Shown here in pieces: positions 2,028 to 21,054 of a stretch of DNA of 21,054 bases. The DNA is from a virus: IMG/VR virus record IMGVR_UViG_3300037225_000592, positions 1-21,054 of that record, one strand, 5' to 3'. Below the pieces are notes generated by a model that worked only from the letters and a program-made list of their open reading frames with translations, did no database searches and had not been told where the DNA came from. Position numbers and translations under genes: made by a program. The first letter of the stretch is position 1; each line of letters starts with the position of its first letter.

Positions 2028-3119
2028 ATGGATTCTACAAGCTCAGTTATTGTTTTAGATGTTATTCCTTCTGCTCAGCCTACTTATTCTTATTATCTTT
2101 CTGCAATTGATATTCCTTCTTTAAGTGCTTATGTGGATTTTACTATCTCTGGGATCTATGTTACTACAATTACTCCAATGATGTATATTACTTATGTAAC
2201 TACTTGTAAGATCAATAACAAAATTTACGTAGGACAACATAGTTTATTAAGTAAAAAGAAAATGTATTTGGGCAGCGGAATATTAATAGCTAGAGCAATT
2301 AAGAAATATGGTAGTGAAAACTTCTATAGAGAAATAATTGAATATAATACTGTTGTTAATATTGATGATCGCGAAACTTATTGGATTGCTGCTTTGAGTG
2401 CTACAGATCCAATGATAGGATATAATATTGCAAAAGGAGGCAGGGACGGGTCGACAGGTTTAAAACGTTCAAAGGAACAAATTCAAAAAAACAAAGGTCA
2501 CAAAGACAGAAAACACACAGAAGGAACAAAAATAAAAATAGGGATTTATTCAGCACAACATAATTGGGCCAGCAAATTCACATATATTCTTAGTAATAAT
2601 CAGCATATTTGGGATGTTTTTGATAAAGTAGAAAGACGCAATATAAGTATGAGATTTAATCATCACAAATCAAATATTATAGTTTATAAAGGAATTACGA
2701 TTGAGAGAAAATTAAAAGATAATATACACGAAGCATATAAAAATTACATCAATCCAAGGTTAGGAAAACATCCATCAGAAGAAACAAATAGAAAAAATAG
2801 TGAATCTAATAAGGGCAGGGCGTGTTGGTGTAAGGGGATGCCCAAACCTCAAGAAACAAAAGACAAAATCAGCAAAACACTTACAGGAAAGCCACCCACA
2901 AATTATAAATTTTATTATATATTATCAAACGGAGAAGATTTTTGGAATTTTTATAATAGACTTCAAAGATTTAATATAAATAGAAAGATTAATAGACACA
3001 TACAAGCAGGAGATCTTAGCAACACAATCATCTACAAGGGAATCACAATTACTCGCAGGCTTAAAAATCCTTCAAGTCTTCCTCCTGTAACTTTAAATCT
3101 GAAAGAATCTATAACATAA
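2028..3119 (+). CDS. GIY-YIG homing endonuclease fused in frame to the start of a late phage protein
   Basis: Residues 1-50 (beginning MDSTSSVIVLDVIPSAQPTY) are rich in Ser, Thr, Tyr and Pro and look like the start of a structural protein. A GIY-YIG nuclease domain begins at about residue 52: YITY stands for the first motif, IYVGQ (67-70) for the second, with candidate catalytic Arg89 (in ARAIKKYG) and Glu116 (in DDRETYW). NUMOD3-like DNA-binding segments follow (about 147-172 and 249-290). Two copies of a module ending in YKGIT with a basic tail lie at about 184-231 and 294-346. The last 15 residues return to a Pro/Ser/Leu composition. A GGGAGG ribosome binding site seven bases before the ATG and a late promoter precede it. 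GIY-YIG enzymes cut DNA at a specific site and spread their own gene. Confidence 0.85.
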   Translation: MDSTSSVIVLDVIPSAQPTYSYYLSAIDIPSLSAYVDFTISGIYVTTITPMMYITYVTTCKINNKIYVGQHSLLSKKKMYLGSGILIARAIKKYGSENFYREIIEYNTVVNIDDRETYWIAALSATDPMIGYNIAKGGRDGSTGLKRSKEQIQKNKGHKDRKHTEGTKIKIGIYSAQHNWASKFTYILSNNQHIWDVFDKVERRNISMRFNHHKSNIIVYKGITIERKLKDNIHEAYKNYINPRLGKHPSEETNRKNSESNKGRACWCKGMPKPQETKDKISKTLTGKPPTNYKFYYILSNGEDFWNFYNRLQRFNINRKINRHIQAGDLSNTIIYKGITITRRLKNPSSLPPVTLNLKESIT

Positions 3120-3121
3120 AT

Positions 3122-3129
3122 TATAAATA
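3122..3129 (+). promoter_or_regulatory. T4-type late promoter TATAAATA
   Basis: Exact TATAAATA within AATTATAAATACTATTAGA, three bases after the stop of the endonuclease gene and 48 bases before the tape-measure gene. The next bases (AACC then CTCAC) are also closely matched downstream of the promoter at 15177, so the similarity runs past the core motif. It probably drives the operon from the tape measure to the hub gene. Confidence 0.8.
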
Positions 3130-3177
3130 CTATTAGATAACCCTCTCACAGCAAACCCTAATCAAAGAATATAATAT

Positions 3178-5238
3178 ATGGCAGAGCAAGTCATGACAGA
3201 GAAAACTGCGAAGGAATTAACAGACGCAATAAAAAGCCTGACAATTCCTACAAAAGAACTCGTGAGAAAAGGTCAAGGCAATCCCACAACACAGCAACCT
3301 CTCCAAACTGTTGGTGCATCGGATACAACTAAATTCATGAAAAAAGAAGATCCTGCAAAAAATTATTATAAGAATTCCCTGCTTACTCTCAAAGAAATTC
3401 TGAAAGTTAATAAAGACATACTAAAGAATTCGATGCAGAAATTTACTATGGGATTAGGCAGTCTTGCAATGATTGGAGGGCTTCTGGGTTGGTTGCTTAC
3501 AGGAAAAACAGATCTGCTTAATTTGGCCGTAAAAGCATTCGAGAAGAAATTTATTTTACCATTAGGGCAGGCATTTGATAAAATTCTTCAAAAAATTGCA
3601 AAATTTGCATTAAAATTCTTAGAAAAACCAGGAGCTGAAAAAGCAGGAGGAAAGATAGCAGAGAAAGTAGGAACAAGTATAGGTAGAAGATTGGCAAAAG
3701 GTAAAGACAAATTAAAGGCAGGGGAAAAAATTGCAGAAAAAGCAGGAACAAGTATAGGTAGAAGATTGGCAAAAGGTAAAGACAAATTAAAGGCAGGGGA
3801 AAAATATGTTTGGAGAAAAGGTGGTGCATTTGCTGAGGCAGGATCTGAAGGAGCAGTAAGAGGCATAGAGAAAATGTCTGCTAAAGAATTAGAAAAGGCA
3901 GCACTAAAAACAACAGAAAAAGCAGGATTAAAAGGGTTGATTAAAGGAGGAAGTAAACTTGGATTGAAGGCTTTAACAAAAATTCCTATTCTTGGTACAA
4001 TCTTAGGACCTGTAGTTGGATTGATTTTTGCCTTTGAGAAATGGAAAAAAGGAGATTATGTTGGTGCTCTTATGGAATTAGGTTCTGGGTTTCTTGCTAT
4101 GATTCCTTTTTTAGGTACTCCTTTATCTATTGCTATGGATTTAATTATAGGCTTTAGAGATTTAAAAAGATCACAGGCAGACATAGACAAATCTGCATTA
4201 AATAAACCAAAAAACGTTACTTTAAAAATGTCAGATGCAATTTTAGATGGCCTCCCAGTAATTGGTACAATTCGCGCATATAATAGAATGAAAAAGAAAT
4301 GGGCAGCGAAAGATCCTGTTGGTGCTTTTATGGAATTAGGTATGGGCTTTGGTTCTTTTATTCCTGGATTAAACACAACAATAGAAATTATGTCTGCAAT
4401 ATTTAAATCAGGCACAGACATATCAGGACAATCAAACGTAGGTGCTCTTGGAAAACCTGTTTCATATAGTACAGATTCAAGGTCTCCAAGTGCTGATGCA
4501 GATATTGATGCGCTGATGAATGGAACAAATCAACTTACTAATTTCAAGCCAACAAATTATAATGTTCCAATGTCTCCAGAAGCTTACATGGCAACTACTC
4601 AAAAAGCATTTCAAACTTACTCTGAATACTCTAAGGACAATCCTCTTTACATATATCCTGGTGCAACTATTAATGGCCTGAGATCAAATGTAAAGCAGAA
4701 TCTCTTAGGAATGGGACAGGAATATTACGCTCTTACGGGACAGAAGCTTCAGATTAATTCTGCTTATAGAGATTATGCAGCACAGAAGAAACTCTACAAC
4801 CAATATAAGGCAGAGGGAAAACCGGAGTATGCTTCCAATCCAGATGATCCTGTGACTGGCAAACCTCGCGCACCGAGAGCACATATGCGTGGGGTAGCCG
4901 TCGATATCCAAAGTAGCTCCGCAGATTATCTTGATCAAACAGGACTATTATCTAAGTATGGATTCAAACGTCCGCTTATGCAACTGGCAGGACAACCACA
5001 GAATATAAAAGAACCTTGGCATATACAAGCTCCAGAGCAAGGTGACTTTACTAATAGTGATGCCATCTCTCCTCAAAGTTTTGCGATGAATATGGATAAA
5101 ATAAATAAAGCAACAGGTGGGAACGGGATGAAAGATTTAATTAATATATTGACAGAAAATAATAAGAAGTTGATGAAGACAATCTTAAGTCAAAAAATGT
5201 CACATGCTCAAAGTCTTTCAATTAATTCAGCAGGATAA
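3178..5238 (+). CDS. Tape-measure-like tail protein with M15/VanY-type peptidoglycan peptidase domain
   Basis: The protein has 686 residues. Residues 90-150 are hydrophobic and helical. Residues 157-207 hold a tandem 25-residue basic repeat. Two related hydrophobic segments (GDYVGALMELGSGF near 292 and DPVGAFMELGMGF near 379) resemble the membrane-active parts of tape measures. Residues 500-620 form a D-Ala-D-Ala carboxypeptidase/endopeptidase domain: SAYRDYAAQ (528-536), zinc ligands His569 and Asp576 in AHMRGVAVD, and Glu612 and His615 in EPWH. The tail end is a helix. In T4 the tape measure gp29 lies just before gp48, and here a tube-cap gene follows after 5 bases, which supports this role. 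The peptidase probably cuts peptide cross-links as the tail passes the cell wall. No Shine-Dalgarno is visible before the ATG. Confidence 0.8.
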   Translation: MAEQVMTEKTAKELTDAIKSLTIPTKELVRKGQGNPTTQQPLQTVGASDTTKFMKKEDPAKNYYKNSLLTLKEILKVNKDILKNSMQKFTMGLGSLAMIGGLLGWLLTGKTDLLNLAVKAFEKKFILPLGQAFDKILQKIAKFALKFLEKPGAEKAGGKIAEKVGTSIGRRLAKGKDKLKAGEKIAEKAGTSIGRRLAKGKDKLKAGEKYVWRKGGAFAEAGSEGAVRGIEKMSAKELEKAALKTTEKAGLKGLIKGGSKLGLKALTKIPILGTILGPVVGLIFAFEKWKKGDYVGALMELGSGFLAMIPFLGTPLSIAMDLIIGFRDLKRSQADIDKSALNKPKNVTLKMSDAILDGLPVIGTIRAYNRMKKKWAAKDPVGAFMELGMGFGSFIPGLNTTIEIMSAIFKSGTDISGQSNVGALGKPVSYSTDSRSPSADADIDALMNGTNQLTNFKPTNYNVPMSPEAYMATTQKAFQTYSEYSKDNPLYIYPGATINGLRSNVKQNLLGMGQEYYALTGQKLQINSAYRDYAAQKKLYNQYKAEGKPEYASNPDDPVTGKPRAPRAHMRGVAVDIQSSSADYLDQTGLLSKYGFKRPLMQLAGQPQNIKEPWHIQAPEQGDFTNSDAISPQSFAMNMDKINKATGGNGMKDLINILTENNKKLMKTILSQKMSHAQSLSINSAG
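3643..3792 (+). repeat. Tandem repeat, two 75-bp units inside the tape-measure-like gene
   Basis: Units 3643-3717 and 3718-3792 encode 25 residues each (containing GTSIGRRLAKGKDKLKA) and are nearly identical at the DNA level; differences cluster in the first third. A partial third unit begins at 3793. The period is a multiple of three, so unit gain or loss keeps the frame. Confidence 0.9.
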
Positions 5239-6513: not shown

Positions 6514-7698
6514 ATGGCTACAACACAATCACAGTTCTCCCCTGGTCTTGCAAATTATTTCTGCAAGCTTAAAATAAATAACATAGATGTGCCAGTTGAT
6601 TCTATAAGTTCAATAGTAATTCGTAATTGGATATTTGACGTGATACCAAGGATAGAACTCACAATACAAGACAATGGGACATTCTGTGAGATCTATCCTT
6701 TAACTGACGCAACAGAAATCCTCTTAGAAATTGGAAAGAGTAAAGAATCAAATCATATTACTACTACATTTATTTTAGATAATTATGCCATAGATATTCT
6801 TGCAGGCAATTCGAGTAATATTATAACTATCACAGGATTCTTAAAGTATAACGATTTCTTTTTTCCAGTACATACAAGAGCATTTAAAAATCAAACTTCT
6901 ATTAGTGTTCTCGAAAAAATTGCAGGGGAAGCAGGATGGACGGTTAATAATGTAATCCCATCTCAGAGTAATGATAAGATGTCTTGGCTTCAGATAAATT
7001 CCTCAAATTACGATTTCTTACAGCACGTACTTAAGAGGTCTTCTATAACAAACGATTTACTAATAGCATATGCAAAATTTAATAGTACTTTTATAATAAC
7101 TTCTTTAAAGACTGCAATTTCTCAAAGTTTCTTAAAGACTTGTAGATTTGATCTGAAGAAAGCTGCAGCAGATGTCCTCACAGATAAGAATGATGCAATG
7201 GTACTTTGGACGAATGGATATAAAGTTGACAGCATTGCAGGATACTTAAATAAAATTGGAGGGTATGGGCTTACAAGTAGTTTCTACGATATGACAAGTG
7301 CAAAGACTTTGAGTTCTGCCATTGACTCACATCCTCTTGCAAAATATAAATCTAATCAATCTTATATAGGGAAATTTGTAGATTCAATTAATTATGGATC
7401 TCTTAATGCGAATATGTCAAACAACTATTATAAAGGACAGATTACTAATAGAAATTTGATGGCCTCGCAGTTTGGTACTATGATTACTGCTAAAATAAAT
7501 CCGTTAGCTCTGAACAAAGTAAATTTAATGGATGTGATAAACTTTACGATGCCTAGTATAAACGCCAGACAGAATAATGAAATTTACTCAGGAGATTATC
7601 TAGTTTGTGGTATGGTAGCTTATTCCTCAAAGAGTTCTCCATTACAATTAGAGATAAATCTTTTACGCAATGGTAGGAATAAATCTGCTATTGTTTAG
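6514..7698 (+). CDS. Baseplate hub protein, gp27 / gpD-like
   Basis: The 394-residue protein has the layout of the hub family (T4 gp27, P2 gpD): an N-terminal barrel (YFCKLKINNIDVPVDSISSI, followed by RIELTIQDNG), a middle section with SISVLEKIAGEAGW and NYDFLQHVLKRSS, and a C-terminal barrel ending in SSKSSPLQLEINLLRNG. The motif in which a short helix predicts 'D-F-L/Q-V-L' is typical of these hub proteins, which form the trimer between the tail tube and the spike. The gene begins one base after gp53. Its stop overlaps by four bases the end of a convergent minus-strand gene, which marks the end of this late operon. Confidence 0.75.
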   Translation: MATTQSQFSPGLANYFCKLKINNIDVPVDSISSIVIRNWIFDVIPRIELTIQDNGTFCEIYPLTDATEILLEIGKSKESNHITTTFILDNYAIDILAGNSSNIITITGFLKYNDFFFPVHTRAFKNQTSISVLEKIAGEAGWTVNNVIPSQSNDKMSWLQINSSNYDFLQHVLKRSSITNDLLIAYAKFNSTFIITSLKTAISQSFLKTCRFDLKKAAADVLTDKNDAMVLWTNGYKVDSIAGYLNKIGGYGLTSSFYDMTSAKTLSSAIDSHPLAKYKSNQSYIGKFVDSINYGSLNANMSNNYYKGQITNRNLMASQFGTMITAKINPLALNKVNLMDVINFTMPSINARQNNEIYSGDYLVCGMVAYSSKSSPLQLEINLLRNGRNKSAIV

Positions 7699-8093
7699 AT
7701 TTGATAGTCATCTTCTATAAGTTCTTTAAGTTTTCGTTCTATTGTAATTCCTTTGTAGATTATTATATTAGATTTTTTAATGCAAAATTTATGAGTAATG
7801 CTACTTTTTTCTGCTTCCGTAAAAAATTCAAATAAATCTTTTCCATTGCTTAATATATAATAATATCTTCTATGAGGAATGCCTCTTTTTGTTTTGGTTT
7901 CTTTTGATGGTTTTTTATTTTCTTTTATTGCTAAGTTACTATAAACATCTTCTTTAAAATTATAATTAGTGGATTCTGTACTTAATTGTATAACGTTTTG
8001 TTTTAGATGATATATGTGGTAATATTCTTTAAGATATTGTTTTCTTTTAATATTTTGTGCTTTCCAATACTCTCTTTGTTCTTGTGTGCTCAT
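7695..8093 (-). CDS. Homing-endonuclease-related DNA-binding protein without a nuclease domain
   Basis: The first 35 residues of this 132-residue protein are basic and helical (REYWKAQNIKRKQYLKEYY). Residues about 77-125 are a module (YYYILSNGKDLFEFF then SNIIIYKGITIERKLKEL) clearly related to the two C-terminal modules of the GIY-YIG endonuclease at 2028-3119. No GIY-YIG or HNH motif is present. It may be the DNA-binding remnant of a homing endonuclease, or a repressor-like protein derived from one. It starts two bases after the polynucleotide kinase stop and is presumably read from the same early promoter at 9333-9361. Its 3' end overlaps the hub gene. Confidence 0.7.
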   Translation of the reverse strand: MSTQEQREYWKAQNIKRKQYLKEYYHIYHLKQNVIQLSTESTNYNFKEDVYSNLAIKENKKPSKETKTKRGIPHRRYYYILSNGKDLFEFFTEAEKSSITHKFCIKKSNIIIYKGITIERKLKELIEDDYQI

Positions 8094-8094
8094 T

Positions 8095-8991
8095 TTAGAA
8101 ATTCCCCTCTGCGACCTGGAGTACTGTGAGATTCATATTTCTCCACATCCTACAAACCTTTGATCTATCGTCCAAAACAAAAAGAACATTAAATTTATTC
8201 AAGACATTTGCCTCATAGAGTTCTCGCTTAACAATATCATCTGCTCTATTATCTCCTGCATTCCTCATAAAAATATAATCATAGGGAATCTCATATTTCT
8301 TTAACCATGCTTCTGTATCTACTTTGATTTGATTTTCTATTCCTCTCCCAGACATAATAATAATCTTAGTTCCTGTATTATGATATGTCTTAACAATATT
8401 GGCTATGGGAACATTTAAATAGTCAGTGGAGATCTTATTCCAATCAAAAGGTCCCCTATCACCGTGAAGTGCAAGAGTTCCATCGATGTCAACCATACAA
8501 GCATTAGGAAGATCAAGATTGGTTATGAAGGCATTATGTTTTTTCGGGAAGTAAATTGTCCTCTCAGTCTTTGATATATGTGAGAAGTTTTCTTGCATTT
8601 TCTTCATCACATTATCTGGCACTTTTTCTATTCCCGTTCTGTTATTATTCCTTCTGCAACACTCCTCAAAACTAACATCAAAGATTTTCTCAGTTACTTG
8701 TATTTCTCCAATACGTTTGGCTATGTTGCAGATCTCAGAGAAATAAGATTCCGTGCAATGACAGTTATCTACTATGACATTCTTGCCTTTGCCCAAAATT
8801 GATTCGAGAGTATATGTTTCAATTTGAGTTACAAGATTTTCAATTCTCTGGTCATATGTTTCTCCGATAAGTCCACGTCTAATGCTATCACGATTTACCC
8901 TGTAGTACTTCGGATTATCTATGAGGAACTGCTTGCAGAATGTACTTTTACCACTTGCGGGGATTCCTCTAAGGACGAAGATTGTTCTCAT
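8095..8991 (-). CDS. pseT: Polynucleotide 5'-kinase / 3'-phosphatase, T4 Pnkp type
   Basis: This 298-residue protein matches T4 Pnkp (301 residues) in length and order. The kinase domain has a P-loop, GIPASGKST (9-17), and a substrate-side motif RVNRDSIRR (31-39). The phosphatase domain has the HAD motif DIDGTL (168-173, with Asp168 and Asp170 expected to be catalytic), MSGRG (213-217), and an acidic motif LDDRSK near 275. The enzyme makes 5'-phosphate and 3'-hydroxyl ends so that RNA ligase can reseal cut RNA; in T4 it repairs tRNA broken by host anticodon nucleases. No RNA ligase gene is in the window. Its ATG overlaps the TGA of the upstream gene, with GGAGG just before, so the two are co-translated. 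Confidence 0.92.
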   Translation of the reverse strand: MRTIFVLRGIPASGKSTFCKQFLIDNPKYYRVNRDSIRRGLIGETYDQRIENLVTQIETYTLESILGKGKNVIVDNCHCTESYFSEICNIAKRIGEIQVTEKIFDVSFEECCRRNNNRTGIEKVPDNVMKKMQENFSHISKTERTIYFPKKHNAFITNLDLPNACMVDIDGTLALHGDRGPFDWNKISTDYLNVPIANIVKTYHNTGTKIIIMSGRGIENQIKVDTEAWLKKYEIPYDYIFMRNAGDNRADDIVKRELYEANVLNKFNVLFVLDDRSKVCRMWRNMNLTVLQVAEGNF

Positions 8992-9243: not shown

Positions 9244-9318
9244 TGGGTTGAGAAATGAGAATCGAACTCATATCACTGGAACCACAATCCAGAGTTCTAC
9301 CATTAAACTATTCTCAAC
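9244..9318 (-). tRNA. tRNA-His, anticodon GTG
   Basis: All four arms can be folded by eye. The acceptor stem has seven pairs, with an extra G at -1 facing C73, the identity mark of tRNA-His. The anticodon stem is CTGGA/TCCAG with loop TTGTGGT, giving anticodon GTG. The T arm is ATGAG-TTCGATT-CTCAT. T8, G18-G19 and T54-T55-C56 are in place, and the CCA end is encoded. One G-U pair closes the D stem. The 5' end lies about seven bases from the predicted start of transcription of the early promoter at 9333-9361. Confidence 0.95.
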
Positions 9319-9332
9319 ATAGATCAATAGAT

Positions 9333-9361
9333 AATATAATAGGTGCTCAAAGGAAAGTCAA
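9333..9361 (-). promoter_or_regulatory. Early sigma70-type promoter before tRNA-His and the kinase genes
   Basis: Reading the minus strand: TTGACT (9356-9361), a 17-base spacer and TATATT (9333-9338), near the ideal sigma70 pattern. The spacer begins TTCCTTTGAGCA, shared with other minus-strand promoters here. The predicted start is near 9325, a few bases before the tRNA. Confidence 0.8.
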
Positions 9362-12645: not shown

Positions 12646-13038
12646 ATGCCAATAACTTCCAGAGAAAATACAGATCATTTCGCTTATGATATTTCCTCTA
12701 AGATTATATCAAAGGGTGAATGTTATGATACAGATGTTATTAATCAAGAAATATCAAATATCTTAGGTACAAATTTTGGGTCCCGCGTCTTTAATTTAGG
12801 GTTTGGAAGTTCTCTTGGATTTAAATTATTTGAGATCTTTGATACTCGGAGTGGCGAAGAACTTTTAAATTTAATCGTAGAACAGCTATATGTTTATCTC
12901 TCAAATCAAATCACCATAGACGAAGCCAATATAAAAATGGACTTAGATAAAAATAATAATTCAATGGCTCTGAGTATTCCCTACAGCGTAAAAAATACTG
13001 CGAAGAAATCATATTACAAAAAGAAATTTATTTTATAA
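12646..13038 (+). CDS. 25: Baseplate wedge protein gp25 (lysozyme-like family)
   Basis: The 130-residue protein (T4 gp25 has 132) has the family motifs: GSRVFNLGFGSSLGFKLFEI at 45-64, corresponding to 'G.r...p.fG..l...lF', then a helix (SGEELLNLIVEQLYVYL) and a strand-rich end with NSMALSIPYSV. The family is gp25/gpW-like and forms the wedge core with gp6 and gp53; it resembles lysozyme in name only and no catalytic activity is implied. No strong Shine-Dalgarno is visible; the gene starts four bases after the coiled-coil gene and may be translated by coupling. It is the last gene of its operon and meets the minus-strand micro-gene cluster tail to tail. Confidence 0.85.
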   Translation: MPITSRENTDHFAYDISSKIISKGECYDTDVINQEISNILGTNFGSRVFNLGFGSSLGFKLFEIFDTRSGEELLNLIVEQLYVYLSNQITIDEANIKMDLDKNNNSMALSIPYSVKNTAKKSYYKKKFIL

Positions 13039-13080
13039 TTTCTTCATATAAGACTATTGATTGGAGAATAGAATCCAAAT

Positions 13081-13275
13081 CTATTTTATAATTAATGCGC
13101 GCAGAATGAATTTTCTTATAATAAAACATAACCCATGACTTATTGTTAATCTGAATTTTGTTGTTTTGTCTTTGTTTGTATAAAATCCAAAACATATCCA
13201 TTGGTTCTGTGATGTGTCAATTACTGTCCATGTTTTATGAATGAAAGGGTTTAATTTATCTTTTATATTCTTCAT
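13081..13275 (-). CDS. Micro-cluster protein G, hypothetical
   Basis: This 64-residue basic protein begins MKNIKDKLNPFIHKTWTVID, has two Trp near the middle (NQWICFGFY) and a strand-like end. It starts six bases after the previous gene's stop, without a Shine-Dalgarno. Its start (MKNI-KL) resembles that of the 61-residue ORF at 14817-15002. It is the last gene of the cluster and no function is recognised. Confidence 0.55.
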   Translation of the reverse strand: MKNIKDKLNPFIHKTWTVIDTSQNQWICFGFYTNKDKTTKFRLTISHGLCFIIRKFILRALIIK

Positions 13276-13281
13276 TTAAGT

Positions 13282-13431
13282 TTATTTTTTTAAAGCTGTG
13301 TGAATTATAAAACTAAGATGATAGACTTGATCCCATACACGTTCTTTAATTTGATCTGTAAGTAGAGGATAGATTTTATTATAAACACAATCTCCGGTTT
13401 TATTCCATACCAAGTGTCTAATATTATTCAT
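13282..13431 (-). CDS. Micro-cluster protein F, hypothetical, 49 residues
   Basis: It begins MNNIRHLVWNKTGDCVYNKI. Its ATG overlaps the previous stop as ATGA and no Shine-Dalgarno is seen, so coupled translation is likely. The section LLTDQIKERVWDQVYHL resembles LIPHDIFVYILWNEVKHQ in the ORF at 14817-15002, suggesting that the small proteins of this cluster are relatives. No function is recognised. Confidence 0.55.
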   Translation of the reverse strand: MNNIRHLVWNKTGDCVYNKIYPLLTDQIKERVWDQVYHLSFIIHTALKK

Positions 13432-13589
13432 TTATTTTTTATTTCTTTTTTGAGAGTATCTAATAATAAATAAATAAATAAATCAAAAGGTTGTATTCCA
13501 TCCCAATCAAATTTACGAGATATTTGGGATATGTCAAAAGAGAATTTATATTCATGATGAGGACAAAGAATTTGAGTTAATGTTTTCAT
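13428..13589 (-). CDS. Micro-cluster protein E, hypothetical, 53 residues
   Basis: It begins MKTLTQILCPHHEYKFSFDI and ends in a hydrophobic then basic helix (LFIYLLLDTLKKEIKNK). The N-terminus is paralogous to the neighbouring gene at 13594-13791 (common pattern L-T-x-I-L-x-P-H-H), which supports both as genes. It starts four bases after the previous stop and overlaps the next start. Confidence 0.6.
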   Translation of the reverse strand: MKTLTQILCPHHEYKFSFDISQISRKFDWDGIQPFDLFIYLLLDTLKKEIKNK

Positions 13590-13593
13590 TTAT

Positions 13594-13791
13594 CTAATCT
13601 ACCAAGAACGTTATAATTTCTTTACATTCTTTTCTGAGTTGGTATAAAATTTTATCATTAAATGTATTGAAGTGTATTACAAGTTCATAAGCATTTCCAT
13701 GATGATGAATATTTTTAAGAAGACCATCATTATCAAACACTCTAAAATCTTGTTGGTGATGAGGATATAAGATTTTAGTTAATATTTTTAT
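13594..13791 (-). CDS. Micro-cluster protein D, apparent AUA start, 65 residues
   Basis: The frame reads KILTKILYPHHQQDFRVF, paralogous to the start of the next gene (KTLTQILCPHH), and runs for 65 residues to TAG with a helical end (KILYQLRKECKEIITFLVD). At the place where the paralogue has ATG AAA, this one has ATA AAA, and that ATA overlaps the preceding stop (ATATAA). Either translation begins at AUA through coupling, or a GTG at codon 18 is used, which would discard the conserved section, or the start has mutated. The reading is real; the start is uncertain. Confidence 0.5.
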   Translation of the reverse strand: MKILTKILYPHHQQDFRVFDNDGLLKNIHHHGNAYELVIHFNTFNDKILYQLRKECKEIITFLVD

Positions 13792-13955
13792 ATTATTTCT
13801 TTAAGAGTGTAGAATACGGGGTTCATGAAATTACTTATATCTAAAATATTTACTCTATTAGTTTTGTAAAGGTTTGATAATCTAATATATTCAGGTAACG
13901 ATTGATATGCATTCATTTCAATGATATTATAAATCTCATATGTTAGATTATTCAT
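13788..13955 (-). CDS. Micro-cluster protein C, hypothetical, 55 residues
   Basis: It begins MNNLTYEIYNIIEMNAYQSL and ends in FYTLKEII. The ATG overlaps the last codons of the preceding gene, so translation is probably coupled. It is helical by composition and shares the MNN start with the gene at 13282-13431. No family is recognised. Confidence 0.6.
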   Translation of the reverse strand: MNNLTYEIYNIIEMNAYQSLPEYIRLSNLYKTNRVNILDISNFMNPVFYTLKEII

Positions 13956-14250
13956 TTATCCATACTTCTGTTCCATCAATAGTAGCTGCAACGATGGCAT
14001 CTGCTTCTGATTCATGTACCCAAAATAGCTTTCCTACATCCTTTTTAGTAAAATTAGCAGATCCTTTAGAATAAATTATTTGATTATCTTTACGATGAAT
14101 TAAATATATTTGCATGATTCCATCTTCATCTTCTCCTTGGCAAACAATTCCTTCTGTATCTTTTAAATAATAAGATAGAGCATTCGAGGCACATCTACAC
14201 ATAATAATAGGAAAAGGAACTTCTGAAGGATCGTCTCCATTTAATATCAT
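13948..14250 (-). CDS. Micro-cluster protein B, hypothetical, 100 residues
   Basis: The 100-residue acidic protein has a Cys pair (IMCRCASNAL), strand-like middle (IMQIYLIHRKDNQIIYSKG) and the end VAATIDGTEVWINE, suggesting a small alpha/beta fold. AAAGGAG lies six bases before the ATG, a good early-gene ribosome binding site. It follows the 47-residue gene by 12 bases under the promoter at 14432-14460. I do not recognise it; many early phage proteins of this size act on host factors, but nothing here shows that directly. Confidence 0.75.
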   Translation of the reverse strand: MILNGDDPSEVPFPIIMCRCASNALSYYLKDTEGIVCQGEDEDGIMQIYLIHRKDNQIIYSKGSANFTKKDVGKLFWVHESEADAIVAATIDGTEVWINE

Positions 14251-14262
14251 AGAATCTCCTTT

Positions 14263-14406
14263 TTATACTTCATCTAACATTTCACCAATTTGTTCTCTGA
14301 TTAAAAGTAATTCTTTGAGGTTTACAATAATATTTTGATCTTCTGTGTTTGCTGCTTTAATCATTAATTCGTATAATTTTGGAACGTCTTTCTCTATATA
14401 ATCCAT
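14263..14406 (-). CDS. Micro-cluster protein A, acidic helical protein of 47 residues
   Basis: It begins MDYIEKDVPKLYELMIKAAN and ends GEMLDEV; nearly all helix-forming and acidic. It has the best ribosome binding site of the cluster, AGGAGG six bases before the ATG, and a sigma70-type promoter directly upstream (14432-14460), giving an RNA leader of about 20 bases. It is the first gene of the seven-gene run ending at 13081. Confidence 0.75.
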   Translation of the reverse strand: MDYIEKDVPKLYELMIKAANTEDQNIIVNLKELLLIREQIGEMLDEV

Positions 14407-14431: not shown

Positions 14432-14460
14432 AAGATATATTATGCTCCAAAGAAAATCAA
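14432..14460 (-). promoter_or_regulatory. Early sigma70-type promoter of the micro-gene cluster
   Basis: On the minus strand: TTGATT (14455-14460), 17 bases, TATCTT (14432-14437). The section upstream and into the spacer (GAGAAATAGCTTGA, then CTTTGGAGCA) is nearly the same as at 14780-14808, which argues that these are copies of one promoter. Confidence 0.7.
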
Positions 14461-14779: not shown

Positions 14780-14808
14780 AAGATAAGTTCTGCTACAAAG
14801 GAAGTCAA
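14780..14808 (-). promoter_or_regulatory. Early sigma70-type promoter before the 76-residue gene
   Basis: On the minus strand: TTGACT (14803-14808), 17 bases, TATCTT (14780-14785). The predicted start is near 14773, with the ribosome binding site about 20 bases further on. It shares the bases around and after the -35 box with the promoter at 14432-14460. Confidence 0.7.
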
Positions 14809-14816
14809 GCTATTTC

Positions 14817-15002
14817 TCATCTTTTATAAATATAGGTGTAATTTTGGTGTTTTACTTCATTCCATAGAATATAGACAAAAATATCATGGGGTATTAAAAG
14901 CTTAACGAAACTATAACTAAGTACTCTGTAATTTATAATATTTCTAAGAAATTGGCAATTAAACTGAAGTTGATCTTTTAATTTATTAGATATATTTTTC
15001 AT
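14817..15002 (-). CDS. Small hypothetical ORF downstream of the structured RNA
   Basis: The 61-residue reading begins MKNISNKLKDQLQFNCQF and is rich in Tyr, Phe and Ile. It starts seven bases after the inverted-repeat RNA and has no Shine-Dalgarno, so expression is uncertain. Two weak likenesses favour it: the first eight residues resemble the protein at 13081-13275, and LIPHDIFVYILWNEVKHQ resembles part of the protein at 13282-13431. The TATAAATA near its end (14825) faces the plus strand and seems fortuitous. Confidence 0.4.
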   Translation of the reverse strand: MKNISNKLKDQLQFNCQFLRNIINYRVLSYSFVKLLIPHDIFVYILWNEVKHQNYTYIYKR

Positions 15003-15008
15003 AGTAAT

Positions 15009-15123
15009 GTCTTGAAAGTATTATAGTATCGGCCTTCAGCACTACTCACGCAGCCGACAGTTGAGACATCCTCTGAGGTGTTATTTCAGGAGTAGTTTAA
15101 CATTCCTATAATACTTTCAAGAC
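15009..15123 (-). ncRNA. Structured RNA: 18-bp closing helix, internal pseudoknot and hairpin
   Basis: Bases 15009-15026 (GTCTTGAAAGTATTATAG on the plus strand) and 15106-15123 form a perfect 18-bp inverted repeat. Between them, ACTACTC (15041-15047) pairs with GAGTAGT (15090-15096), and TCGGC (15029-15033) pairs with GCCGA (15053-15057), the two helices crossing as a pseudoknot. A further hairpin pairs ACA and CCT with AGG and TGT (15066-15081). The promoter at 15130-15158 would start RNA at about 15123, the first base of the closing helix. There is no U-run, so it is not a simple terminator; it is either a discrete RNA or the leader of the ORF at 14817-15002. It matches no class that I know. 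Confidence 0.6.
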
Positions 15124-15129
15124 AACTTT

Positions 15130-15158
15130 AATATAATTAATTCTAAAAAGAAAGTCAA
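15130..15158 (-). promoter_or_regulatory. Early sigma70-type promoter of the structured RNA
   Basis: On the minus strand: TTGACT (15153-15158), 17 bases, TATATT (15130-15135). Seven bases beyond the -10 box lies the G at 15123 that opens the 18-bp helix. Confidence 0.75.
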
Positions 15159-15176
15159 GTTCTTTAATACTAAAAT

Positions 15177-15184
15177 TATAAATA
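15177..15184 (+). promoter_or_regulatory. T4-type late promoter TATAAATA
   Basis: Exact TATAAATA in AAAATTATAAATACTATTAGA, 47 bases before gp6. The following AACCTCAC resembles the sequence after the promoter at 3122. It is divergent from, and 18 bases away from, the -35 box of the early promoter at 15130-15158. Confidence 0.8.
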
Positions 15185-15231
15185 CTATTAGACAACCTCA
15201 CCTTATTAAAAACATAATATAGGAAACCACA

Positions 15232-18993: not shown

Positions 18994-21054
18994 ATGTCTG
19001 ATTATACTTATACACTTGATGGTGATAATGCTACTATAACTGAATATACTGGTGCTGGAGGATACATAACAATTCCATCTACAATAGATGGGCATCCTGT
19101 AGTATCTATAGGATATCATGCATTTTATAGTTTATCAACCATTATAACTGTTATAATTTCTGATGGTATTATAAGTATTGGTGGAGGAGCTTTTCAGTTG
19201 TGCTCTTCATTAGTAGAAATAACAATTCCTAATAGTATTACTTCTATTAGCAATTTAGTTCTTGCTAACTGCACATCATTAAGAAATGTATTTTTTGGTA
19301 ATGGAGGGATAACTGCTATAAGTGATAGTTTATTCTCATATGATGAGTCACTTAATAATATAGTACTTCCTAGTACTATTACATCTATTGGAATTGGTTC
19401 CTTTTATGGGTGTAGTGAACTAACTGAAATAATAGTACCTAGTGGAGTTACTACTGTAGGTAATGGAGCTTTTAGTAATTGTACTTCCTTATTATCTGCT
19501 ATATTTTTAGGTAATTCTCCAACAATTGGAGTTAATGTATTTGAAAATGCTGCTCCAGGATTTTTAGTTTATTATCAAGCAGGAACATCTGGATGGAGCA
19601 ATCCTTGGAGTATTTATGAATATTCTACGCAAGAAATCGGATTACCTATAAATTACATAACAGAACTTTCATGTAATCCTGGAGATCAAAATGAATTTTC
19701 TACTTCTGCAATTTGGGTAATAGATAATTATACTCCCGGTGAATGGGATGGAGAAGAAGGAAATCTTGTTGCTTTCTTTTCAAGCACATCAGGATCACAA
19801 GTTACTATTAGTTTATCTGCAATAGGAAATATTAATCCTGTTTCTTATATGAGTTTTCAAGATATTAATTTTATTGGTGGTAGTGTTAGTGCAGATTATC
19901 ATTGTGAGGATTTAGGAAATAATAGTGGGATTGTATTTCTTTCAGTTCCAGAGAGTAATTTTTATGCTGATATAGATGATGCTTATACAGGAACGAGTCA
20001 TACAGGAACAATTGGAGATCCTTTTTCATGGGACGATTTGAATACTCATTCATCTAATACTTCTGCTGGTATGACTTATAATATTAAAGGAATTCACAAC
20101 GATACATTTGCTTGTGGTGCATATGTTAGTATTATGGCTAATATATGGCAAGGATGGAATCCAAGTGTTAATGGTCCTTGGAGAATAAAGTCAATTGATC
20201 ATGCAAGCGGAACAAGTATAAATCTTGCTGCGCTGTATGGAAGTAAAATAAAGGGGGGAATTTTTTATGCTCCCGATGAATACGCTTCACTCGTTATAGG
20301 ACAAGGAGATTATTATTCTTGTATATTTATTGCAGATGATAATATTTATGTACCTATATATGATAATGTTAATTTTTATGGATGTTCTTTATATGGAACT
20401 TTTACTGGTTATAATAGCTGCCAAGAAATAGATTTTTATAATAGTTGTATTGATATGTTTGGATATACAGGTCCTGGTTATTTATATAATTGTGCAATAG
20501 CGGATAGTCAAGTAGGTAATTCTATTTCTGTAGATTGCCAAATAAATTGGAGTATGCCAGCACGACCTCAATGGGATGGTGCAAGTTCCGTATTTAAGAA
20601 TAGCGTATTGAGTGCAGGAATTACTACTCCTCCAGAGCCAGGACTTTTACCTTATACAGATTATGAAGTTGGATTATGGGACTCTGCTAGAACTGGTATA
20701 GGTGCATTTTATTTTGATTCAATTACTCCCCCTTCTGCCACTAATTTTTATGCTGATATAGATGATGATTATACAGGAACAGGACATGCAGGAACCGAGA
20801 TAGATCCATTCTCTTGGACAGATTTATATAACCATTCAACAACTTATACTTCTGGGAATACTTATAATATTAAAGGAACAAGAACAGATACAACGACTGA
20901 AGGGGGAGTTTACTTATCTGTAAATAAGAATACATGGCAGGGCTGGAATCTCTCTGCTAATGGTCCTTGGAGAGTTAAAGCTACATTGACAAGTATTAGT
21001 AATGTTAATGATAATGTAGATGGAGTTGTAAAGGATGCGATATTAAATGTAGAT
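18994..21054 (+). CDS. BspA-type leucine-rich-repeat receptor-binding protein, 3' partial
   Basis: The frame stays open for 687 codons to the window edge. Residues 1-180 contain about six BspA-type (LRR_5) repeats, e.g. LVEITIPNSITSI, LTEIIVPSGVTTVGNGAF, with the typical 'GAF..C..L' ends. After a middle section follows a module at about 323-400 (FYADIDDAYTGTSHTG to NGPWRIK) which recurs at 585-662 (FYADIDDDYTGTGHAG to NGPWRVK); between the two lies a Gly/Tyr/Cys-rich, beta-helix-like section. The protein starts one base after small paralogous protein 3. Position after gp6 and the repeat make-up indicate a tail fibre or adhesin that contacts the host surface. LRR_5 domains are common in surface adhesins of gut and oral bacteria, but this does not identify the host. 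Confidence 0.8.
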   Translation, partial: MSDYTYTLDGDNATITEYTGAGGYITIPSTIDGHPVVSIGYHAFYSLSTIITVIISDGIISIGGGAFQLCSSLVEITIPNSITSISNLVLANCTSLRNVFFGNGGITAISDSLFSYDESLNNIVLPSTITSIGIGSFYGCSELTEIIVPSGVTTVGNGAFSNCTSLLSAIFLGNSPTIGVNVFENAAPGFLVYYQAGTSGWSNPWSIYEYSTQEIGLPINYITELSCNPGDQNEFSTSAIWVIDNYTPGEWDGEEGNLVAFFSSTSGSQVTISLSAIGNINPVSYMSFQDINFIGGSVSADYHCEDLGNNSGIVFLSVPESNFYADIDDAYTGTSHTGTIGDPFSWDDLNTHSSNTSAGMTYNIKGIHNDTFACGAYVSIMANIWQGWNPSVNGPWRIKSIDHASGTSINLAALYGSKIKGGIFYAPDEYASLVIGQGDYYSCIFIADDNIYVPIYDNVNFYGCSLYGTFTGYNSCQEIDFYNSCIDMFGYTGPGYLYNCAIADSQVGNSISVDCQINWSMPARPQWDGASSVFKNSVLSAGITTPPEPGLLPYTDYEVGLWDSARTGIGAFYFDSITPPSATNFYADIDDDYTGTGHAGTEIDPFSWTDLYNHSTTYTSGNTYNIKGTRTDTTTEGGVYLSVNKNTWQGWNLSANGPWRVKATLTSISNVNDNVDGVVKDAILNVD

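Follow-up and report, generated by a model that had tools for sequence, protein, structure and literature searches.

We identified, behind an early promoter of a T4-like phage, a stem-closed element with a possibly pseudoknotted interior, and we tentatively favor reading it as a small structured RNA gene or an autonomous 5' RNA domain that would be expressed early, with its 5' end protected by a stem, and that is an orphan. The earlier note on this DNA had proposed an early RNA that it could not classify, with its 5' end at the base of a helix. That proposal is supported in part, having in its favor a promoter family, the arrangement of a tRNA-His gene, and the lack of an Rfam match, while the pseudoknot it included is read from one sequence.

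The stretch of DNA that was analyzed (the window) is a virus record of 21,054 bases, a fragment that is linear in IMG/VR, and its source is a divergent T4-like phage. Its baseplate genes encode a T4_baseplate protein as well as gp53-like, gp5-like, gp25-like, and gp6-like proteins of a T4-type tail, the gp6-like protein being 19-21% identical to cyanophage, Pelagibacter phage, and Streptomyces phage counterparts. The element lies in the gap between the gp25-like and gp6-like genes and heads a 2-kb island of small minus-strand ORFs.

Several other features of the window were recorded along the way. These include a minus-strand row of ORFs of about 50-65 codons (13030-14400), mostly without ribosome sites, whose stops and starts overlap or abut; a homing-endonuclease-like gene (2028-3119), which fits the TIGR01453 group I intron endonuclease model; a shorter ORF on the opposite strand (7695-8093), whose tail sequence resembles that of the homing-endonuclease-like gene; and, near the end of the record, a 137-nt direct repeat (19956-20092 and 20742-20878) that is 77% identical, its copies 786 nt apart.

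Closing stem and early promoter

The element is closed by an inverted repeat (helix P1) of 19 bp with zero mismatches, its arms at 15008-15026 and 15106-15124. The perfect repeat of 18 bp claimed previously is thereby borne out and is one base pair longer, and the 79 nt found between the arms equal the claimed interior. Read on the minus strand, the 5' arm of the RNA is TGTCTTGAAAGTATTATAG (15106..15124) and the 3' arm is CTATAATACTTTCAAGACA (15008..15026), both from repeat search, shuffles, and folding. When the window was shuffled 100 times under a first-order Markov model and at most 300 nt were allowed between arms, the longest perfect repeat obtained was 16 bp. The base rate in 1.2 Mb of other loci was about 1 per 300 kb (four perfect repeats of at least 17 bp with a spacer of 30-300 nt), and a repeat of the size of P1 is rare, yet expected somewhere in a large scan. 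Perfect inverted repeats of 19 and 22 bp around 80-100 nt were also noted in two other phage contigs (L049 8747-8885 and L036 12869-12991), where the sequence is unrelated to that of the window's repeat.

The folding z-score of the whole element is -4.7 on the minus strand and -5.2 on the plus strand. This signal comes from the closing stem, because the nested fold of the interior alone is no better than that of shuffles (z +0.3 minus, -0.6 plus). None of the 19 bp of P1 is a G-U pair or a mismatch, and such perfection would fit a DNA-level or recent origin no less well than selection on an RNA.

The repeat stands above its base rate because its edge coincides with a predicted transcription start. 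A near-ideal minus-strand promoter (TTGACT-17-TATATT) had been claimed, and it was found at 15158-15130, with the -35 box TTGACT at 15158-15153 and the -10 box TATATT at 15135-15130. It is one of a four-member family; the motif TTGAYTTYCYTTKNAGNA-N5-TATMTT occurs in the window at 9333-9361, 14432-14460, 14780-14808, and 15130-15158, each time on the minus strand, as compared with 0.05 occurrences expected. Judging from these counts, the early promoter is real as a class; it is phage-specific and of sigma-70 type. Normal -10 spacing, with a 6-nt discriminator following the end of the -10 box at 15130, predicts a start at G15123. This is the first base of the 18-bp helix or the second of its 19-bp version, in keeping with the claim that transcription begins at the base of the closing helix. 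By simple arithmetic, four predicted starts in 21 kb give a probability of ~0.001 that one of them lies no more than 2 nt from the edge of the repeat.

The gp6-like gene has a T4-type late promoter, AAATTATAAATACTA (15173..15187, plus strand), which is divergent from this early promoter. The late promoter has four exact copies, all on the plus strand, at 1908, 3118, 9367, and 15173, and the window holds two divergent early/late pairs (9333-9361 with 9367, and 15130-15158 with 15173).

A parallel early unit (9244..9361, minus strand) consists of a promoter at 9361-9333 followed by tRNA-His at 9317-9244. The tRNA begins ~9 nt after the predicted start of the same promoter class; next comes a small early gene that has a good ribosome site. 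Since tRNA-His comes first in this parallel early transcript, it provides a precedent within the window for a structured RNA in that slot. Near tRNA-His, and in the same early direction, lies a polynucleotide kinase-phosphatase (PNKP) gene (8095-8991, minus strand) that may serve tRNA repair.

Interior fold and search for relatives

The interior has a GC content of 47%, against 33% for the window, as would be expected of a structured RNA in an AT-rich genome. Both of the crossing helices claimed for it (5 bp and 7 bp) were found. Helix A, a single-sequence prediction, pairs ACTACTC (15090..15096) with GAGTAGT (15041..15047) over 7 bp. The 5-bp core of helix B (TCGGC/GCCGA) extends on the minus strand only, where TGTCGGCT (15052..15059) would pair with GGCCGATA (15027..15034) over 8 bp, including two G-U pairs. 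Nested minimum-energy folding of the minus strand yields helix B, whose 3' arm directly adjoins P1, such that helix B could stack on the closing stem. On the plus strand its two G-U pairs become non-pairs, leaving a 5-bp helix, which modestly favors the minus strand as the RNA.

The arms of helices A and B alternate in the order A-B-A'-B', as in an H-type pseudoknot, whose loops would measure 30, 4, and 6 nt. The summed stacking energy of A and B was matched by 4 of 500 mononucleotide shuffles and 2 of 500 first-order shuffles (0.4-0.8%). Between the 5' arms of A and B, direct reading also yields the hairpin that had been proposed, ACA-CCU-CAG-AGG-A-UGU (15066..15081), although it is a weak one of 3+3 bp with a bulge. 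Taken together, this one sequence is suggestive of a pseudoknot that is plausible, not established.

The element could not be matched to an RNA class by the author of the earlier note, who asked for an Rfam scan. At gathering score, only tRNA-His matches Rfam 15 within the window, and a permissive search of the element gave nothing below E 2. It matches no Rfam ribozyme, and thus no known self-cleaving class, and is called as a tRNA or tmRNA by neither ARAGORN nor Rfam. Nothing found speaks for the ribozyme or the nuclease decoy raised in the earlier note. We also dropped an integron attC (no attC core in the sequence), a retron (no reverse transcriptase nearby), and a CRISPR repeat (no direct repeats).

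Relatives were sought at the level of DNA, protein, and structure. Searches of phage DNA with the locus and with the 124-nt core, and of plasmids, returned nothing beyond a chance match of E 4. Single-protein searches of IMG/VR by gp6 and by PNKP gave no relatives. A six-member gp6 alignment gave one near relative (L071), with a gp6 49% identical, and a pair-alignment search of IMG/VR returned only L071 again and one remote record. No such inverted repeat lies between gp25 and gp6 of L071; where the window has its early island, L071 has a TnpB-type gene (2826-3992; OrfB_IS605 and Cas12f1-like TNB domains). Two patterns of pseudoknot letters found 62 and 2 matches in IMG/VR. Of the 62, one in the GC-rich L038 lies close to a 9-bp complement but lacks an ACTACTC arm, and the remainder have neither the complement nor that arm. 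Both matches to the second pattern fall inside long coding frames or span them. Searching IMG/VR by the closing stem (15-bp arms) and by the early promoter motif gave no matches, and none of 85,000 prokaryote genomes searched by the stem (outer 12 bp) has both arms; three exact 19-mers in those genomes have no partner arm. A one-sequence covariance model run over 87 fetched loci found the window alone. A 13-nt stretch matching L073 and L120 falls, on inspection in L073, within sequence that looks coding, and we took it as chance. As there is no homologue in phages, plasmids, IMG/VR, or the 85,000 genomes, there are no compensatory changes to count.

Leader, DNA element, or chance

The element is followed on the minus strand by a 61-codon ORF (14817..15002), whose ATG at 15002 lies 5 nt past the helix end at 15008. 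It might therefore be a cis-acting 5' leader that represses or gates translation of this small early gene, in the manner of phage autoregulatory leaders or riboswitches, a reading that seems to us rather unlikely. The structure would take up the entire predicted leader, beginning where transcription starts and leaving 5 nt ahead of the AUG, and the ORF extends exactly to the next early promoter, stopping just short of it. T4-type phages offer a model, in that gene 32 of T4 is controlled by a gp32-bound 5' leader pseudoknot, and a pseudoknot in a 5' leader is the likeness between our element and gene 32 of T4, T2, and RB69 (PMC3014915). However, a leader of that type precedes gene 32 and carries an A+U-rich, single-stranded operator that covers the ribosome site. 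The phage element has no gene 32 downstream, no identified protein ligand, and no identified gp32-type operator, and it has a long closing stem of a kind not described for the T4 leader. We rejected this class on finding downstream a protein without a family match and without a Shine-Dalgarno sequence.

The ORF itself also argues against a leader. No Shine-Dalgarno sequence was found at any position near the AUG, whereas neighboring early genes have strong ones (AAAGGAG or CAGGAGG), and codon usage carries no coding signal (z 0.1), by a test of low power at 60 codons in which a false ORF scored z 2.7. The ORF is possibly either untranslated or dependent on the structure for its translation, and the 19-bp closing stem appears too stable for an ordinary switch. 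We prefer an RNA gene over a leader mainly because of the precedent of tRNA-His, which is a single one.

It is improbable, in our estimation, that the repeat is a feature of the DNA, either as the ends of a short non-autonomous mobile element or as a template-switching palindrome, that came by chance to lie behind a promoter. Such an origin would suit a perfect repeat without G-U pair or mismatch, its TG...CA ends, and the differing GC of the interior, and the TnpB gene of L071 indicates that the gp25-gp6 gap accepts mobile genes. On the other hand, neither a target-site duplication beside the ends nor a second copy in the window was found, as would be required of an inverted-repeat mobile element (MITE or IS end), and the genome and IMG/VR searches by the stem gave no copy, the partnerless 19-mers included. 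The coincidence of the repeat edge with the transcription start would also be left unexplained.

Lastly, that a palindrome and a pseudoknot arose by chance and have no function is doubtful; one such repeat is expected in a scan of many windows of viral contigs and the nested interior fold is ordinary, but there are only four early promoters, one of which has its predicted start at the edge of the repeat, and the composition of the element differs from that of the genome.

Among the results that the earlier note listed as refuting its proposal is a match to a known terminator or to an insertion-element end; we looked for one and found none. An intrinsic terminator (a short GC-rich hairpin with a U-run) was rejected, as direct reading confirmed the reported lack of a U-run past the helix on either strand and there was no terminator call at the element. 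With no terminator behind the stem, a small RNA could become free only through processing of its 3' end.

A proposed stem-protected early RNA

Several observations lead us to favor a structured early RNA: a repeat beyond chance, a promoter ending 6 nt before the helix, the raised GC content, crossing helices matched in fewer than 1% of shuffles, G-U pairs that are strand-specific, the slot shared with tRNA-His, and an ORF without Shine-Dalgarno sequence or codon signal. This reading is weakened by the lack of a homologue and of a terminator, the ordinary nested fold of the interior, a predicted start that is unmapped, a stem without G-U pair or mismatch, and the low power of the codon test.

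We hypothesize that the element would be transcribed early, on the minus strand, from the phage-specific sigma-70-type promoter. A start at G15123 would leave the 5' triphosphate end locked in an 18-bp duplex with 15009-15026. Base pairing at the 5' terminus stabilizes bacterial RNAs, since RppH and RNase E require an unpaired 5' end (PMC3997798), and the duplex may likewise shield this RNA from enzymes with that requirement (RppH, and RNase E in its 5' tethering), which would render it stable. As a stable module, the RNA would present its interior, which probably folds into an H-type pseudoknot that stacks on the stem, and it would occupy the position taken by tRNA-His in the parallel early unit. 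Its 3' end would probably be made by processing beyond the stem, which we propose because there is no terminator.

Known systems share parts of this arrangement. The 5'-terminal stem-loops of the ompA and papA leaders, which stabilize these bacterial mRNAs, pair the first bases of the transcript and so hinder RppH and RNase E (PMC3997798), and the predicted start of the phage element would place its first bases in a helix as well. The phage stem differs in its 18-19 bp and in closing a 79-nt, possibly pseudoknotted interior. The RCd22/AbiF antitoxin RNA of a C. difficile prophage is similarly a structured phage RNA of ~100 nt right behind a sigma-A type promoter and before a gene; it has two abiF motifs, a terminator, and an AbiF gene (PMC12373285), none of which occurs at the phage element. 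Phage tRNA genes transcribed from early promoters, such as tRNA-His of this phage, share its promoter class and first-in-transcript position, whereas the element is not itself a tRNA.

To our knowledge, few structured noncoding RNAs are known from lytic phages. A further proposal, and a long shot, is that the element represents a new class of phage early noncoding RNA, with a duplex-sealed 5' end and a pseudoknot core, that stands first in an early unit in place of a tRNA and acts in trans on a host nuclease, an RNA-sensing defence, or the ribosome. More generally, an early RNA built to withstand 5'-end decay would be a candidate for a role in host take-over or counter-defence, and even if the element were only a stabilized leader, it would still be a case in which a phage begins a transcript within a long stem.
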